Shown here one piece after another: positions 1 to 36,497 of a stretch of DNA of 64,000 nt. A model generated the notes under the pieces. That model was not told the origin of the DNA and searched no databases. It saw only the letters and a program-made list of their open reading frames with translations. Each line of letters begins with the position of its first letter. The stretch's first letter is position 1. Origin of the DNA: Levilinea saccharolytica (GTDB lineage: Bacteria; Chloroflexota; Anaerolineae; Anaerolineales; Anaerolineaceae); the NCBI RefSeq assembly GCF_001306035.1, contig NZ_LGCM01000045.1, positions 1 through 64,000 on the forward strand, given 5' to 3'. The translations under genes were made by a program, and so were the position numbers.

Positions 1-905
1 CCAAGTTCTGGCAGGACCTGGGCTCCATGGACGGCAAATGGCTGGCCGTGCCCGTCAAGGCCGACATCAAGTCCATCGTCTGGTACTCCCCCGTCCAGTT
101 TGAAGCCTTCGGCTACACGCCTCCCGCCACCTTCGAAGAGCTTGAAGCCCTGGTGGAGAAAATGATCGCCGACGGCAACATCCCCTGGTCGATGGGCATG
201 GAATCCGGCGCCGCCACCGGTTGGACTGGCTCCGACTTCATCCAGGATATCCTCCTCGCCCAGCAAGGCCCGCAGTACGTCATGGATCTCATCTCCGGCA
301 AGGTCGCCTATAACGACGCCGGGGTGGTCAAGGCTTACGAAACCTACGCCAAATGGGCCGCTTCCGACAAGCACACCGTCGGCGGCGCCACCGGCACTGT
401 CTCCACTCCCTTCCTGGATGCCATCTACAAGGTCTTCGCCGATCCCGCCGAGGCCATGATGGTCAAGCAGTCCGGTTTCGCCGGTGGTGAGGTGGCCAAG
501 AAGTTCCCCACCCTCGAATACGGCACCGACTATGATTTCTTCCCCTTCCCCGGCGCCAAGGGCATGCAGGGTGGGGCCGACTACATGATGGCCTTCTCGG
601 ACTCACCCGCTGCCAAGGCTCTGGTGGGCTACCTCACCGGTGCCGCCGGTGCCGAGACCTGGGCCTCTGTCGGCTTTGACCTCTCCCCCAACAAGCTGGC
701 CGACGGCAAATACACCGACGCCCAGCTCACCAAGAAGGCCGCTGCCCTCTCCGCCGCCGCGGGTTTCACCCCTGACCTGGGCGACACCATCCCTGCTCCC
801 TTCGGTGAAGCCGAATGGAAGGCCATCATCGCCGTCGTGCAGGGTACCGCCGCCGCTGAGGCGCTGGCCCCTGCCGCCGCCGCGCAGGCCGAAGCCTTGA
901 AATAA
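1..905 (+). CDS. Sugar ABC transporter substrate-binding protein, AglE-like (5' truncated)
   Basis: The frame is open from the window edge to a TAA at 903-905, so only the C-terminal ~300 residues are visible; signal peptide and lipobox would lie upstream. The visible part has the look of a family 1 (alpha-glucoside type) solute-binding protein: WYSP, a GTDYDFFPFP stretch and a KALVGYLTGAAGAETWA helix, ending in an Ala-rich tail. Two permeases and trehalose synthase follow on the same strand, so it probably captures a maltose- or trehalose-like alpha-glucoside outside the membrane. Family call is strong; the exact sugar is inferred. Confidence 0.85.
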   Translation, partial: KFWQDLGSMDGKWLAVPVKADIKSIVWYSPVQFEAFGYTPPATFEELEALVEKMIADGNIPWSMGMESGAATGWTGSDFIQDILLAQQGPQYVMDLISGKVAYNDAGVVKAYETYAKWAASDKHTVGGATGTVSTPFLDAIYKVFADPAEAMMVKQSGFAGGEVAKKFPTLEYGTDYDFFPFPGAKGMQGGADYMMAFSDSPAAKALVGYLTGAAGAETWASVGFDLSPNKLADGKYTDAQLTKKAAALSAAAGFTPDLGDTIPAPFGEAEWKAIIAVVQGTAAAEALAPAAAAQAEALK

Positions 906-1057: not shown

Positions 1058-1972
1058 ATGAACACTCCAACGATCATGAAACAAAGCCGCTGGGTTCCGT
1101 GGCTGTACCTGGCCCCGGCTTTGTTGGTCATGGCGGTGTTTGTGCTGTACCCCATGTTCAACACCTTTGTCTTGAGTTTCATGGACAAAACCGGCACGCA
1201 GTCGGCTGCGGTGAGCTGCGTCGCGGGTCAGCCCTGCTGGGGCTCCTTTGAAAATTACCGCTACGCCCTCACCAACCCTGAAATGCTGCAAGCCCTGCGC
1301 AATAATGCCTTGTGGCTGCTGCTGATGGTTCCCGGCACGGTCATCACCGGCCTGCTGTTCGCCGTGCTGGCCGACCGGGTGCGCTATGAGGCCCTGGCCA
1401 AAGCCATCATCTTTATGCCCATGGCCATCTCCTTTGTGGGCGCGGGCATCATCTGGCGCTTCGTGTACTACATCGAAACCGGCTCCGGCCAACAGATCGG
1501 CCTGCTCAACGCCGTGCTGGTGGCCTTTGGCGGCCAGCCGGTGGCCTGGCTGAGCAACCCCGCCTTTAACAATTTTGCCCTGATGATCGTGGGCGTATGG
1601 CTGTGGGCGGGCTTTTGCATGACGATCCTCTCCGCGGCCTTAAAATCGGTGCCCGCTGAAATCTTAGAGGCAGCCCGCGTGGACGGTGCGCGCGAAGTGG
1701 AAGTCTTTTTCCAAATCATGCTGCCCATCATCATGCCCACCATCCTGGTGGTCACCACCACCATGGTCATCAACGTCCTCAAGATCTTCGATATCGTTTT
1801 CGTGCTCACCGGCGGCAATTTTGGCACCGAAGTCATCGCCAACCGTATGTTCAAGTTGATTGTCACCGACACCGGCCGCTCCATGGCCATCGCCGTGCTG
1901 CTGGTGCTGCTCACCATCCCGGTGCTGATCTTCAACGTCAACCGCTTCCGCCAGCAGGAGGCTTCGCGATGA
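1058..1972 (+). CDS. Sugar ABC transporter permease, MalF/AglF-like
   Basis: Inner-membrane permease of 304 residues. The first TM segment is at ~15-37, followed by an external loop with two Cys (SCVAGQPC), then five or so further TM segments. The EAA loop that contacts the ATPase is visible as EILEAARVDGAREVEVFFQI around residue 205. Start: ATG at 1058 behind AAGGAG at ~1046. Its TGA overlaps the next ATG (ATGA at 1969-1972), so the two permeases are translationally coupled. No ATPase gene is in the window; a shared MsmK/MalK-type ATPase elsewhere is likely. Confidence 0.93.
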   Translation: MNTPTIMKQSRWVPWLYLAPALLVMAVFVLYPMFNTFVLSFMDKTGTQSAAVSCVAGQPCWGSFENYRYALTNPEMLQALRNNALWLLLMVPGTVITGLLFAVLADRVRYEALAKAIIFMPMAISFVGAGIIWRFVYYIETGSGQQIGLLNAVLVAFGGQPVAWLSNPAFNNFALMIVGVWLWAGFCMTILSAALKSVPAEILEAARVDGAREVEVFFQIMLPIIMPTILVVTTTMVINVLKIFDIVFVLTGGNFGTEVIANRMFKLIVTDTGRSMAIAVLLVLLTIPVLIFNVNRFRQQEASR

Positions 1973-3183
1973 AACCCTTCCAGCGGCTTAACCGCATTTT
2001 CAACCATCTGCCGGTGCATCTGGCTCTGATTTTGATGTGCGTGGCGTGGGTACTGCCTACGATGGGCCTGTTTGTCACCTCCTTTCGCAACAGCGAAGAC
2101 GTGCGCACCACCGGTTGGTGGACGGCCCTGGCCGCCCGCCAGACCCCCGGCGAGCCGGAATACACCACCTACTGCGCCTCCTGCCACGGGGCCGACGGCA
2201 AAGCCCTGCCCGCCGCCGATTTGAGCGACCCGACTTTGATCGAAAAATATCCGCGCTCCAACCGCCTGTTGGCCATGCTGCGCAAAGAAATCAACGGCCA
2301 GCCGCATCTAACCGACCCCGCCCTGCCCGAAAACCCTAACGAGGCCCTGGAAAAGCTCTCCCCCATCCTGACCTATATGCAGGACTTCTCCGGCAGCAGT
2401 CAGGACCAGTCGCGCTTCACCCTGCGCAACTATGCTGACGCGCTGGTGGGCTATAAAGGCACGCAAAACTACCTCACCGATTGTGAACAGGGGGTCGAAA
2501 GCGCCCTGAGCAAGTTCAAATGCACCGCCGCCGACCTGCTTAACCCCGAAGGCATGGGGCGTGCCTTTGTGAACTCGCTGCTGGTGGCCGTGCCCTCCAC
2601 CCTGCTGCCCATTCTGCTGGCGGCCTTCGCGGCCTACGCCTTCGCCTGGATGGATTTCAAGGGCCGCATGTGGCTGTTTGCCCTGCTGGTGGGGCTGCAA
2701 ATCGTCCCCCTGCAAATGACCCTGGTGCCCATCGCGCGCATGTACGTCAGCCTGGGCATGGAAGGCAGCTTCATCGGGATCTGGCTTTTCCACACCGGTT
2801 TCGGTCTGCCCTACGCCATCTATCTGCTGCGCAACTATCTCAGCGGTCTGCCCAAAGAGGTGTTTGAATCCGTCTATCTGGACGGGGCCAACCATTGGAC
2901 CGCCTTCTGGCAGCTGGCCATTCCTTTGGCCACCCCCGCCATCGCCTCGCTGGCCATCTTCCAATTCCTGTGGATTTGGAACGACTTCCTGGTGGCCAAG
3001 ATCTTCCTGTCCAATAACCCCGTGCTCACCGTACAGATCACCAATTTGATTGACCCGCGCGGCGGCAACTGGCATATCCTCACCGGCGCGGCCTTCTTGT
3101 CCTTCCTGGTTCCTATGATCGTTTTCTTCGGCTTCCAGCGCTACTTTGTGCGCGGGATGCTGGCCGGCTCGGTAAAGGGCTAG
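1969..3183 (+). CDS. Sugar ABC permease, MalG/AglG-like, with inserted cytochrome c-like segment
   Basis: 404 residues, over 100 longer than a typical ~280-residue MalG. TM1 is ~14-38. A long external loop follows, and permease homology resumes at FTLRNY (150-155) and continues to the C terminus, with the EAA loop EVFESVYLDGANHWTAFWQL. The loop holds a heme c attachment motif CASCH (C69, C72, H73; bases 2173-2187) followed by GADGKALP, a helix RLLAMLRKEING and a helix LSPILTYMQDF, the usual class I cytochrome c order. The normal distal Met position appears to read QPHLTDP (H113), so the sixth ligand may be His or absent. The positive-inside rule puts the loop outside, where heme is attached. 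Heme binding is inferred. Confidence 0.88.
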   Translation: MKPFQRLNRIFNHLPVHLALILMCVAWVLPTMGLFVTSFRNSEDVRTTGWWTALAARQTPGEPEYTTYCASCHGADGKALPAADLSDPTLIEKYPRSNRLLAMLRKEINGQPHLTDPALPENPNEALEKLSPILTYMQDFSGSSQDQSRFTLRNYADALVGYKGTQNYLTDCEQGVESALSKFKCTAADLLNPEGMGRAFVNSLLVAVPSTLLPILLAAFAAYAFAWMDFKGRMWLFALLVGLQIVPLQMTLVPIARMYVSLGMEGSFIGIWLFHTGFGLPYAIYLLRNYLSGLPKEVFESVYLDGANHWTAFWQLAIPLATPAIASLAIFQFLWIWNDFLVAKIFLSNNPVLTVQITNLIDPRGGNWHILTGAAFLSFLVPMIVFFGFQRYFVRGMLAGSVKG

Positions 3184-3301: not shown

Positions 3302-4912
3302 ATGTCTCAAGCCTGGTATAAAAACGCCGTCTTTTATCAAATTTACACCCGCGCCTTCGCCGACAGTTCGGGCAACGGCTACGGCGACCTGCGCGGCGTG
3401 ATTCAGCACCTCGACCACCTGCAAGCCCTGGGCGTGGACTGCATCTGGCTCATGCCCATCTACCCCTCGCCGCGCAAAGATGACGGTTATGATATCTCCG
3501 ATTTTTACAGCATTGACCCCCAATACGGCACGCTGGACGACCTGAAAGAGCTGGTGGCCCAGGTGCACGCGCGCGGCATGCACATCATCATGGACCTGGT
3601 GCTCAACCACACCTCCGACCAACACGCCTGGTTCCAGAGCGCCCGTTCCGACCCAGCCTCCCCCTACCGCGAATATTACGTGTGGAGCGACACCGATCAG
3701 AAATACAGCGACGCCCGCATCATCTTCCTGGACACCGAAAAATCCAACTGGACTTGGGATGAGCAGGCCGGGCAGTATTATTGGCATCGCTTCTACAGTT
3801 CACAACCTGACTTAAACTATGACAGCCCGCGCGTGCAGGAAGAAATGCTCAACGTGGTGCGCTTTTGGCTGGAGCTGGGCATTGACGGCTTCCGCGCCGA
3901 CGCCGTGCCCTACCTCTTCGAACGCGAGGGCAGCAACTGTGAGAATTTGCCCGAAACGCATCAGTACCTCAAACGCCTGCGCGCCTTTATTGACCAGCAC
4001 TTCCCCCAGGCCATCCTGCTGTGCGAGGCCAACCAGTGGCCCGAAGACGTGCGCCCCTATTTCGGCGACGGCGACGAATTTCACATGGGCTTCCATTTCC
4101 CCGTCATGCCGCGCATTTTCATGTCCCTGCGCCAGGGCCGCCGCGACTCGCTGGAATGGATCCTCGACCGCACCCCGCCCATCCCCGAAAACTGCCAGTG
4201 GTGCACCTTCCTGCGCAACCACGATGAACTCACCCTGGAAATGGTCACCGAGGAAGAACGCCAGTGGATGTGGCAGGAATACGCTCCCGACCCGCGCATG
4301 CGCCTGAACCTGGGCATCCGCCGCCGCCTGGCCCCCCTGCTGGGAAACGACCGCCGCAAAATTGAGCTGGCCTACTCGCTGCTCTTCACCCTCCCCGGCT
4401 CGCCCATCGTATACTATGGGGATGAAATCGGCATGGGCGACAACATCTGGCTCTTCGACCGCAACGGCGTGCGCACCCCCATGCAGTGGACCTCTGGCCT
4501 CAATGCCGGTTTTTCCAGCGCGCCCGCCGATAAGCTGTACGCCCCCATCATCGCTGAACCGCCCTTCGCCCCTGCCCAGGTGAACCTGGCGGATCAGCGC
4601 AGCGATCCCGGCTCGCTGTATAACCTGGTGCGACGCCTCATCCAGGTGCGCAAGCGCACCCCCTCCCTCTCCTGCACCCATTTCGAATGGCTGCGCGCGC
4701 TGCCGCCCGCGGTAGCCGCCTACCGCCGCTGCGCCCAGGGTGAAATTGCCCTGATCCTCAACAACCTTTCGGATCAGCCGGTACAGTTTTCTCTGACTGC
4801 CGACCTGCCCGCAGGGTCGCTGTGTACCGATCTGATCACCGGCGCGGCTTTCCCCGCACCCTCCGAATGGGTTCTCTCCCCGCACCAATACCGCTGGCTG
4901 CGCCTTCACTAA
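3302..4912 (+). CDS. treS: Trehalose synthase (maltose alpha-D-glucosyltransferase), GH13
   Basis: 536-residue cytoplasmic GH13 enzyme expected to interconvert maltose and trehalose. GH13 motifs in order: DLVLNHTS (D98, N102, H103), DGFRADAVPYL with nucleophile D200, EANQWP with acid/base E242, and FLRNHDE with D308. TreS hallmarks are FGDGDEFHMGFHFPVMPR and DRNGVRTPMQW. There is no fused maltokinase domain and no signal peptide. ATG at 3302 follows AAAGGAA. Its place after an alpha-glucoside importer fits trehalose/maltose uptake coupled to interconversion. Oligo-1,6-glucosidase is a less likely reading because the GDGDEFHMGFHFP stretch is TreS-like. Confidence 0.93.
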   Translation: MSQAWYKNAVFYQIYTRAFADSSGNGYGDLRGVIQHLDHLQALGVDCIWLMPIYPSPRKDDGYDISDFYSIDPQYGTLDDLKELVAQVHARGMHIIMDLVLNHTSDQHAWFQSARSDPASPYREYYVWSDTDQKYSDARIIFLDTEKSNWTWDEQAGQYYWHRFYSSQPDLNYDSPRVQEEMLNVVRFWLELGIDGFRADAVPYLFEREGSNCENLPETHQYLKRLRAFIDQHFPQAILLCEANQWPEDVRPYFGDGDEFHMGFHFPVMPRIFMSLRQGRRDSLEWILDRTPPIPENCQWCTFLRNHDELTLEMVTEEERQWMWQEYAPDPRMRLNLGIRRRLAPLLGNDRRKIELAYSLLFTLPGSPIVYYGDEIGMGDNIWLFDRNGVRTPMQWTSGLNAGFSSAPADKLYAPIIAEPPFAPAQVNLADQRSDPGSLYNLVRRLIQVRKRTPSLSCTHFEWLRALPPAVAAYRRCAQGEIALILNNLSDQPVQFSLTADLPAGSLCTDLITGAAFPAPSEWVLSPHQYRWLRLH

Positions 4913-5044: not shown

Positions 5045-6943
5045 ATGCCCCGAAAAATTACCTTCCGCGAACGGTTTCAGTACTGGCAGGACAACCTCTT
5101 CTCCCGCGGCACCGCTGCCCTGATTGGGGCATTGTTCGTCCTTTCCTTCTTGATCATCGCCGTCGGCGCGGCGGCCGTCGTTTTGGGCGGGGACCTCACC
5201 TCGCCCCCCGGCGGTGAACGCCTCAGCCTGGGCGAAGCCATGTGGGAAGCCCTCATGCGCACCCTGGACGCCGGAACCATGGGCGGCGATCAGGGCTGGG
5301 GCTTTCGCCTGGTGATGCTCTTTGTCACCATCGGCGGCGTGTTCGTCATCTCCAGCCTCATCGGCGTGCTCTCAGCCGGGGTCGAAGAGCGCCTGGCGCA
5401 GCTGCGCAAGGGCCGCTCACGCGTGTTGGAAAGCAACCACACCGTCATCCTGGGCTGGTCGGAGCAGGTCTTCACCATCCTGTCGGAACTGGCAATTGCT
5501 AACCAAAACCAGAAACGCCCCTGCATCGTCGTCATGGGCGACGAGGATAAAGTCGTCATGGAAGAGGAGATCGCCGCCAAGGTGGCAGACCTGGGCAGCA
5601 CTCGCCTGGTGTGCCGCAGCGGCAGCCCCATGGAAATGTCGGATCTGCGCATCGCCAACATCAACCAGGCCAAAGCCATCATTGTCGTTTCGCCCAACAC
5701 CCCCGAAGCCGATGCCGAGGTGATTAAAACCGTCCTGGCCATCACCAACCACCCCGACCGCCGCCCAGAGAAATACAATATCGTCGCTGAAATTCACGAT
5801 GTTAAAAATATGGACGCCGCCCGCGTGGTGGGCAAAGATGAAGTCGAATGGGTGCTGGTTGGCGACCTGATCGCGCGCATCATCGCCCAAACCAGCCGCC
5901 AATCGGGCCTGTCGGTGGTCTACACCGAACTGCTCGATTTTGGCGGGGATGAAATTTACTTCACCCGCCAGCCCAGCCTGACCGGCAAAACCTACGGTGA
6001 GGTGCTCAACGCCTTTGAAAAAAACGCCGTCCTGGGCTTGCAGCGCCCCGGTCAACTGGCCCGCCTGAACCCGCCTATGGATACGGTCTTGAGCACGGAG
6101 GATGAGCTGATCGTCATTGCTGAGGATGACGACAAAATTGCCCTGGACGGCCGCGCCCAGCCAGACACGAGCCGCATTCTGCAAACCCCCCACAGCCCCC
6201 AGGCCCCCGAACACAACCTGATCCTGGGCTGGAACTTGCGCGGGCGCTCCATCCTCACCGAGCTGGATGCGTATGTGGCCCCCGGCTCCGTCGTTCACGT
6301 GGTGGCCGACCGCGAGGATTTTGGCGACCTGGAATGGCTCCACGACCAGATGCACAACCAGAAAATCATCTTCCGTTCCGGCGATACCACCGACCGGCGC
6401 GTGCTGGAAAGCCTGGGTTTGGATCAGGTGCAGCACATCATCTTACTATGCTATTCCGACACCCTCGAACCGCAGCAGGCCGACGCCCGCACCCTCATCT
6501 CTCTGCTGCACCTGCGCGATCTGGCCGACCGCCAGGGCTACACCTATTCCATCGTCTCCGAAATGCTCGACATCCGCAACCGCAACCTGGCGGATGTGAC
6601 CCGTGCGGACGACTTCATCGTCAGCGATAAGCTCGTCAGCCTGATGCTGGCCCAGGTGAGCGAAAACGCCAATCTCAACGCAGTCTTTGCCGACATTTTT
6701 GACCCCGAAGGGGCCGAGATTTACCTCAAGCCCGCTAGCGATTACGTTGCGGCGGGTCAGGGGGTGCAGTTTGCCACCCTGATCGAAGCCGCCCGCCAGC
6801 GCGGGGAAACGGCCATCGGCTACCGCCTGGCGGCGCAGTCGAAGGACGCTTCGCAGATGTACGGCGTTCACCTGAACCCGGTAAAATCCCAAACCGTCAC
6901 CCTGACCGCCGCCGACCGGCTGATCGTCCTGGCCGAATCCTAG
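5045..6943 (+). CDS. CASTOR/POLLUX-type ion channel with two RCK-like domains
   Basis: 632 residues. TM segments at ~24-48 and ~88-111 flank a pore-loop candidate EALMRTLDAGTMGGD (68-82), whose DAG resembles the CASTOR/POLLUX filter. Two TrkA-N/RCK-type Rossmann repeats follow, starting NHTVILGWSEQVF (131-143) and HNLILGWNLRGRS (~395). Relatives in plants conduct cations across the nuclear envelope; bacterial members are poorly known. Predicted role: gated cation passage across the inner membrane, with ligand sensing by the RCK domains. It is a single gene behind its own promoter. A TrkA-like regulator is less likely because of the N-terminal pore module. Confidence 0.87.
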   Translation: MPRKITFRERFQYWQDNLFSRGTAALIGALFVLSFLIIAVGAAAVVLGGDLTSPPGGERLSLGEAMWEALMRTLDAGTMGGDQGWGFRLVMLFVTIGGVFVISSLIGVLSAGVEERLAQLRKGRSRVLESNHTVILGWSEQVFTILSELAIANQNQKRPCIVVMGDEDKVVMEEEIAAKVADLGSTRLVCRSGSPMEMSDLRIANINQAKAIIVVSPNTPEADAEVIKTVLAITNHPDRRPEKYNIVAEIHDVKNMDAARVVGKDEVEWVLVGDLIARIIAQTSRQSGLSVVYTELLDFGGDEIYFTRQPSLTGKTYGEVLNAFEKNAVLGLQRPGQLARLNPPMDTVLSTEDELIVIAEDDDKIALDGRAQPDTSRILQTPHSPQAPEHNLILGWNLRGRSILTELDAYVAPGSVVHVVADREDFGDLEWLHDQMHNQKIIFRSGDTTDRRVLESLGLDQVQHIILLCYSDTLEPQQADARTLISLLHLRDLADRQGYTYSIVSEMLDIRNRNLADVTRADDFIVSDKLVSLMLAQVSENANLNAVFADIFDPEGAEIYLKPASDYVAAGQGVQFATLIEAARQRGETAIGYRLAAQSKDASQMYGVHLNPVKSQTVTLTAADRLIVLAES

Positions 6944-35710: not shown

Positions 35711-36460
35711 TCACTGCTTGCCCTCGCCTTTTGAGGACGAAGCAGTCTCTACCTAAAAAGAGCAGATCCCTTCAGCCTACCATGTCACTGCGAGCCCCCG
35801 CCTTTTGGGGGCGAGCCCCCGCCTTTTGGGGGCGAAGCAGTCTCCACCTCAGAAAAGCAGACCGCTTCACATTGACATGTCACTGCGAGACCCGATGGGT
35901 TTTCGGGTCGAAGCAGTCTCTACCTAAAAAGAGCAGATCCCTTCAGCCTACTATGTCACTGCGAGGCCGGGTGACCTTCCCGGCCGAAGCAGTCTCTCCC
36001 ACAAAAGGTACGGATCCCTTTGGGGCGTGGTGCGTTCAGACAACGAACGCACCCTACCGGGGCTTCCCGGCCGAAGCAGTCTCCACCTTGAGGGAAGAGA
36101 TCACCGCGCCGCTTTGCGGCTCGCGATGACACCAAGAAGTGTCACTGCTTGCCCTCGCCTTTTGAGGGCGAGCCCCCGCTCTTTGGGGGCGAAGCAGTCT
36201 CTACCCAGAAAGAGCAGATCCCTTCAGCCTACCTTGTCACTGCGAGGCCGGATGATCTTTCCGGCCGAAGCAGTCTCCACCCTGAGGGAAGAGATCGCCG
36301 CGCCCTCGAAGTGCGAGGGCACGCCGCTTCACGGCTCGCGATGACACCAAGAAGTGTCACTGCGAGGCCGGGTGACCTTCCCGGCCGAAGCAGTCTCTCC
36401 CACAAAAGGTACGGATCCCTTTGGGGCGTGGTGCGTTCAAAAAGCGAGCGCACCCTACCG
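35711..36460. repeat. Cluster of REP-like palindromic repeats
   Basis: Seven full units and one partial unit. Each starts GTCACTGCGAG or GTCACTGCTTG and ends CGAAGCAGTCTC, with self-complementary middles that differ (for example GGCCGG...CCGGCC, GCCCCC...GGGGGC). Starts: 35711, 35784, 35879, 35955, 36141, 36236, 36356; partial at 36063. Spacers repeat too: AAAGAGCAGATCCCTTCAGCCTA occurs after three units, and a ~55-bp block with GGTACGGATCCC occurs at ~36006 and ~36405. Half-units in inverse form (CTCGCGATGACA) occur at ~36119 and ~36335. Non-coding; open frames through it are artefacts. Confidence 0.9.
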
Positions 36461-36497
36461 GATCAAGGCTGCGAGGACAGGGCTGGGCGAACCGCCA

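Follow-up and report, generated by a model that had tools for sequence, protein, structure and literature searches.

An AglG-type sugar permease of Anaerolineae with a CcoP-like cytochrome c domain in its first external loop, and its possible role in redox-responsive import

ABC sugar importers are generally regarded as driven by ATP and regulated by their substrate, their binding protein and their ATPase subunit; AglG, a permease of this kind, is not known to have a redox cofactor. In the window analysed here, a stretch of 64,000 nucleotides from Levilinea saccharolytica, the frame of a sugar permease contains a heme c attachment motif in the first external loop of its product. This raises two questions: is a c-type cytochrome really built into the importer, and what would it do there?

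The permease and its operon

The protein is a CUT1 sugar ABC permease of the AglG/MalG type (Table 1). The NCBIfam models GlcU (E 3e-36) and MalG (E 4e-24) match it, both under their equivalog cut-offs, and it has an EAA-like cytoplasmic coupling segment (FESVYLDGA). The first-pass annotation had described a sugar ABC permease with a heme c motif in a continuous frame, and both parts of this description hold: BPD_transp_1 and Cytochrome_CBB3 lie in one frame of 404 codons, which is open throughout and conserved across 78 sequences, ruling out chance or a frame artefact. A positively charged N terminus precedes the first transmembrane helix, so the loop after this helix is expected on the outside, as analogy with the MalG family would also place it. 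The window permease shares with AglG of the CUT1 family the permease core, a P1 loop with GWW and the gene order binding protein-permease-permease-glucosidase, and it is 43% identical to the AglG of S. meliloti, where the genes stand in the row binding protein, two permeases, alpha-glucosidase, ATPase.

Table 1. Positions of the permease, its parts and its operon neighbours in the window
Feature	Position	Strand	Basis or remark
Substrate-binding protein gene, 3' part (contig starts inside)	3..905	+	Full 861-aa form at L140 5587-8172
AglF/MalF-type permease, 304 aa	1058..1972	+	BPD_transp_1 E 4e-14
AglG/MalG-type permease with inserted cytochrome c-like domain	1969..3183	+	404 aa, open continuous ORF
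First transmembrane helix, about residues 16-37	2014..2079	+	Sequence; helix 16-37 in low-confidence model
Cytochrome c-like domain, about residues 58-141, first external loop	2140..2391	+	PF13442 match at 58-116
CASCH heme c attachment motif, residues 69-73	2173..2187	+	Kept in 78/78 domain-bearing rows
His113, putative distal heme ligand replacing Met, in QPHLTDP segment	2305..2307	+	77/78 homologues
Further external insert specific to the clade (the second), about residues 160-195; contains Cys172 and Cys185	2446..2553	+	Alignment, Cys pattern
Permease core BPD_transp_1 (PF00528), residues 215-397	2611..3159	+	Pfam E 3e-12
Amylase-family enzyme, 536 aa, downstream	3302..4912	+	Alpha-amylase PF00128 E 2e-101

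The genes follow one another on the same strand in the order LacI, binding protein, AglF, AglG and amylase-family enzyme, the last of which we take to be trehalose-synthase or alpha-glucosidase-like. Our neighbour survey targeted these four proteins plus AglG. Around the 78 permeases with the cytochrome domain, AglF is in view at 77 loci, the binding protein at 71 (upstream), the amylase at 56 and LacI at 16; around 12 loopless members of the same clade the figures are 12, 12, 7 and 8. Many loci are too short for the outer genes, and several of the longer stretches have no amylase gene directly beside AglG. The operon partners are thus alike with and without the domain, which marks it as an add-on that is dispensable for transport itself. 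Near the operon, the longest frames that do not overlap were examined for CXXCH at 90 clade loci, which often span only 3-7 kb. No other such frame was found, and no cytochrome partner is therefore seen in the operon. AglG is part of the alpha-glucoside importer AglEFGAK, and the composition of the operon and the S. meliloti gene row make an alpha-glucoside such as maltose or trehalose the probable cargo.

The partner proteins have features of their own. AglF has a clade-specific external Cys pair (residues 54 and 60, window 1217-1237), which occurs in 61 of 77 proteins from loci of the cytochrome type, 11 of 12 from loopless clade members and 0 of 36 others. The second external insert of AglG has two Cys in every row that could be parsed (61 of the cytochrome type and 6 loopless, with 17 and 6 unparsed), and both pairs are seen in members that lost the domain. 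The operon binding protein of the window's genome is a tandem fusion of two near-identical binding proteins in one frame, identical at 388 of 392 positions; an independent relative, L009, has a tandem protein of 853 residues, the only one among 89 frames compared (52 of at least 380 residues). We also looked for co-change with domain loss in two loss lineages. Of 146 conserved columns of the binding protein, 3 had changed there vs 0 in control lineages, and of 117 in AglF, 1 had changed vs 1 in controls, too weak a signal to use. Downstream of the operon, window 5045-6943 encodes a membrane protein with NAD-binding-like segments, presumably a CASTOR/POLLUX-type channel.

A second exact copy of the permease gene is found on the same contig. 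By self comparison, however, window 1-64000 (contig C64) is the reverse complement of C64:83491-147491 at 99.998% identity. This palindrome is most likely an assembly fold-back, so the second copy is most likely an assembly artefact, gene duplication was set aside, and gene copy numbers on this contig are unreliable. The same self comparison revealed direct repeats of 60-107 bp, about 96% alike, at window 35738-36461.

The inserted loop as a cytochrome c-like domain

Pfam Cytochrome_CBB3 (PF13442) matches residues 58-116 with an E value of 4e-4 for the whole protein and 3e-5 for the loop alone. Because the window loop, at 24.9 bits, falls just under the curated cut-off of 27 bits, domain membership was tested on relatives. 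Across 78 non-identical loop-bearing homologues, whose loops are 33-94% identical to that of the window, C69, C72, H73 and G74 are invariant in the alignment, while G77 and H113 are each kept in 77. The CXXCHG of loop 1 is thus common to all these related AglG permeases, and such conservation excludes a chance origin of the motif. At E<=1e-3, PF13442 matches 72 of the 78 loops and PF00034 matches 35. In the window permease, CASCH is followed by GADGK.

The 78 rows had been picked out because CXXCH follows GWW in them, and the circularity of this sorting was then tested by means of a domain-core profile. Each of the 78 reaches E<=2.7e-17, against E 3.1 for the best-scoring of the other 48 rows, none of which has CXXCH; these 48 have either a short loop or a different insert and show no match to the profile. 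The domain is therefore whole or absent in the 126 aligned permeases, and neither a decayed domain nor one without the motif was detected among them by the profile, so that circular sorting was rejected as the source of the CXXCH conservation. The first-pass annotation had pointed to homologues with the same loop but without its Cys and His as the case against a heme; they were sought, and none occurs among the 126 permeases.

When the profile of the loop was compared with PDB sequences, CcoP (cbb3 oxidase subunit III) ranked first with a whole-chain E of 3e-7, a value that adds up the contributions of several cytochrome domains; taken singly, even the best of the CcoP domains matches weakly, at E about 0.014. 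Cytochrome c-552 (7o38) gave a nearly full-length match with E 0.0055. CcoP and the loop have both CXXCHG and a distal nGQ segment in common. They differ in that CcoP1 has a Met in GQMP, whereas 77 of the 78 homologues have the His one residue further, and in that the host protein here is a sugar permease. The usual distal Met of a class I cytochrome c, which had already seemed replaced in the window sequence, indeed gives way to H113 in all these homologues but one. The exception, L071 (genome G319), is the only one with NGQMP, and in the profile alignment CcoP1 reads identically around its Met; the axial ligand of L071 seems to have changed kind while the site stayed. Cytochromes c with a distal His exist, so the distal His would make this domain a variant rather than a plain member of class I. 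A five-coordinate heme is less likely given a distal His that is nearly invariant, and ligand exchange is thinkable because a Met adjoins His113 in 33 of the 78 homologues.

Two structure models, each built with seven aligned rows, have low confidence (mean pLDDT 53 and 43). The two flanking helices of the first-pass annotation do appear, in an order fitting a cytochrome (helices at residues 62-73, 95-108 and 123-140), in the low-confidence model of mean pLDDT 43 alone. Foldseek with the low-confidence model returned one match, with E 7.6, which is not a cytochrome. In nine close pairs of homologues, dN/dS is 0.04-0.28 for the domain (0.04 for the window vs L010) and 0.04-0.07 outside it; in a tenth pair the domain is saturated. 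The domain is thus under purifying selection, though in most pairs it changes more quickly than the permease does. Taken as a whole, the sequence comparisons support well the assignment of the loop insert as a class I cytochrome c-like domain, which would carry a covalent heme with bis-His ligation.

Distribution, history and cytochrome content of the genomes

A species-genome scan gave seven loci, six with the loop and one (L015) without it. In the order of the window, 226 of 400 genomes match the permease at E<=1e-45, and the match spans the loop in 69 of the 400, the window's genome included. A class sample of 298 genomes added 16 loop-bearing genomes outside the order, for 85 carriers in the samples. 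Outside the class, no loop was detected at E<=1e-85 in a phylum sample of 301 genomes, where eight matches start at residue 182 or later. Beyond the phylum, the survey comprised the species-genome scan and plasmid records (best ten rows). No CXXCH occurs in the loops read from three plasmid records, of which two belong to other phyla. The 78 aligned sequences represent 75 of the 85 carrier genomes and three named records; the remaining 10 carriers (G326, G198, G292, G236, G310, G369, G035, G022, G086 and G048) were counted by full-length match and left out of the alignment.

We built a tree of the 126 permeases by a quick method with SH-aLRT only, after removing the loop columns and six duplicate rows. 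L084 (a frame of 257 residues) and L085 (cut by the contig end) have no GWW and were left out, which leaves G187 and the nearer hit of G089 unclassed. The 78 cytochrome forms and 12 loopless permeases make up one starred clade, with the loopless ones nested inside. The best tree requires four changes and the starred branches alone force two, which suggests one gain and about three losses of the domain. The loss lineages have 19-35 residues between GWW and the next NY, and the loopless clade members retain the second insert, with its Cys pair in each of the 6 of 12 that were parsed. Other Chloroflexota AglG and that of S. meliloti have at the same place either no insert or one free of CXXCH, so loop 1 is a site where domains get added. 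We propose that the permease of an ancestral member of the class Anaerolineae (the class name being taken from named records) received a CcoP-like class I domain, a proposal that shares the nearly even standing of the whole explanation given below.

Do the genomes with the domain have what a heme c protein needs? The heme c assembly domain PF01578 is present in 66 of the 69 carrier genomes of the order and in all 46 of those of good quality, and the three carriers without it are genomes 72-85% complete. Among 15 loopless relatives, 8 have PF01578 and 7 do not, in counts taken from 73 genomes that are not a random draw; three of the 15 (G105, G203 and G141) enter the genome counts and lie outside the fetched locus set. 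All 8 loopless genomes with PF01578 have a pentaheme cytochrome. As raw tree-row counts, with kinship ignored, domain and heme c assembly genes are associated (53/3 vs 6/6, Fisher p 5e-4), but a test that takes phylogeny into account would need more than the one to three independent pairs that exist. Class I cytochromes separate the two groups more clearly: 85 of 85 carriers have one or more PF13442 matches, where AglG itself can count, and 15 of 15 loopless relatives have none. This fits the idea that the domain is a real cytochrome, dropped when a cell gives up class I cytochromes.

Most carriers (72 of 85) have more than one class I match and hence at least one besides AglG. In 13 of 85 there is a single match, so the usual class I partner is not always present. 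The single match was placed in AglG for two of these genomes (G261 and G295); in five further ones, from genera g15 and g16, the AglG loop was shown to match PF13442, and for the last six the match is presumed to be AglG. Seven genomes of g15 and g16 have a single class I match. No NrfA was found in these seven. A pentaheme cytochrome is present in five of them and in 9 of the 15 loopless genomes. AglG as the sole c-type cytochrome of g15 and g16 was therefore rejected, while its place as the only class I match stands. The window's genome has NrfA, seven other class I (PF13442) matches and two PF01578 matches; on another of its contigs, a frame of 718 residues (C38 6116-8083) has two pentaheme cytochrome repeats.

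At two loci, L157 (9980-14460) and L160 (7699-12996), a pentaheme cytochrome stands beside a ferric-reductase-like FAD/NAD protein and near a PF01578 protein; the reductase domains were tested in L157. One of the two genomes has the cytochrome permease and the other is without it. In G249 the pentaheme cytochrome adjoins a ferric-reductase-like protein and a PF01578 protein. The cytochrome and the ferric-reductase-like protein are perhaps an electron export pair.

What the domain may do for the importer

Based on these findings, we propose an explanation to which we give not quite an even chance: an AglG-type permease received a CcoP-like cytochrome c in its loop 1, which would serve redox-responsive control of alpha-glucoside import. 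Within it, a true heme c module on the permease is the best reading of the loop, and its use in redox-responsive control is probable. Heme c is attached on the outer side of the membrane, and MalF-P2 and MalG-P1, which are not known to be heme proteins, occupy matching places in the two half-transporters. In our scheme, Ccm-type machinery would attach heme c outside the membrane at Cys69 and Cys72, and the axial ligands would be His73 and, probably, His113. The heme would equilibrate with external electron carriers, and its redox state would alter the docking of the binding protein or the ATPase cycle. Loop 1 would be equivalent to MalG-P1 and, by its position in the half-transporter, to MalF-P2.

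In E. coli MalFGK2 these two are external loops in contact with the binding protein (PMC3150292, PMC8134467): MalE contacts MalF-P2 and MalG-P1 (Daus 2007, cited in PMC3150292), and MalF-P2 is linked to transport activation (Jacso 2012 and Grote 2009, cited in PMC8134467). With the loop expected outside and such contacts of MalE known, a cytochrome here would be well placed to sense redox and act on docking, and the loop may touch the binding protein and gate import. The roles suggested in the first-pass annotation, gating by the external redox state, reporting on it or handing electrons to a partner, are thus plausible. Redox control cannot be essential, since loopless relatives keep the same transporter genes.

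Other roles for the domain have to be weighed against redox-responsive control. The permease might simply anchor, near the importer, a cytochrome for electron transfer among external carriers (class I and multiheme cytochromes, NrfA) without controlling transport. The NrfA, the seven further PF13442 matches and the frame with two pentaheme-like repeats in the window's genome agree with this role, as do the further class I matches in 72 carriers, but in 13 there is a single match, shown in two to be AglG itself, and the protein that bears the domain is one of the permeases of a conserved sugar operon, with no other CXXCH frame in the fetched neighbourhoods; we consider this role unlikely. We judge equally unlikely that the cytochrome fold is only a sturdy external domain holding the binding protein, its heme needed for folding and not for redox. 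In the corresponding position MalF-P2 is a domain not known to bind heme, and the same loop has like-sized, CXXCH-free inserts in AglG of S. meliloti, Shinella and other Chloroflexota. A CXXCH and a nearly invariant distal His kept over deep divergence, however, exceed the needs of a scaffold, and the lineages that lost the domain keep their short GWW-to-NY spacing with no like-sized replacement.

It is still less probable, and in our judgement a distant prospect, that the heme binds NO, CO or peroxide and so shuts off or shields the importer, a role of sensing or scavenging. With a Met beside His113 in 33 homologues, ligand exchange is thinkable, and heme c sensor domains that bind NO are known (PMC12889525), but the nearly universal His113 favours a six-coordinate heme. 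Finally, the loop might be no cytochrome at all, its CXXCH being due to chance in an ordinary loop or serving a metal site. The window copy is under the Pfam cut-off and the structure models are of low confidence; against this stand the conservation of the motif, the agreement with cytochrome profiles and the co-occurrence with class I cytochromes, and we regard it as very improbable.

With redox-responsive control kept as the preferred explanation, how does the permease compare with known heme c recruitments? The nearest published parallel in the literature searched is sCache_heme (DUF3365/Tll0287), a group of Cache sensor domains that acquired a heme c motif of cytochrome origin (PMC12889525). 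In both cases a cytochrome-derived heme c piece lies in an extracytoplasmic protein that is not a cytochrome; there it is a short CXXCH fragment in a Cache fold, whereas here it is a whole cytochrome-like domain in a transporter. The CKACH segment of the human BK channel has been proposed as cytochrome-like inside a transport protein (PMC12346439). That protein is a eukaryotic ion channel with CKACH in its RCK1-RCK2 linker, and the comparison made here is of the CXXCH segment. None of the papers listed by our literature search, which lay outside most subscription journals, deals with an ABC sugar permease that contains a cytochrome domain. The importer type and the cofactor domain, as read from the sequences, are each familiar, but their combination appears not to be described in the literature searched.

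If the explanation is true, a conserved heme c domain on the loop expected to face the binding protein would make redox a direct, protein-level input to an importer. The fullest form of the idea is a tentative one, somewhat more doubtful than the explanation as a whole: an importer with a built-in c-type cytochrome would gate sugar uptake by the redox state outside, and carbon intake would then track the supply of electron acceptors. In g15 and g16 the sole class I cytochrome of the cell may be the one in the permease, and the transporter may thus be the reason for keeping the fold. The same operon with and without the domain in close relatives offers a system in which such ideas can be tested. 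In one bacterial group that has long kept the domain, sugar uptake may be tied to the redox chemistry of the surroundings.
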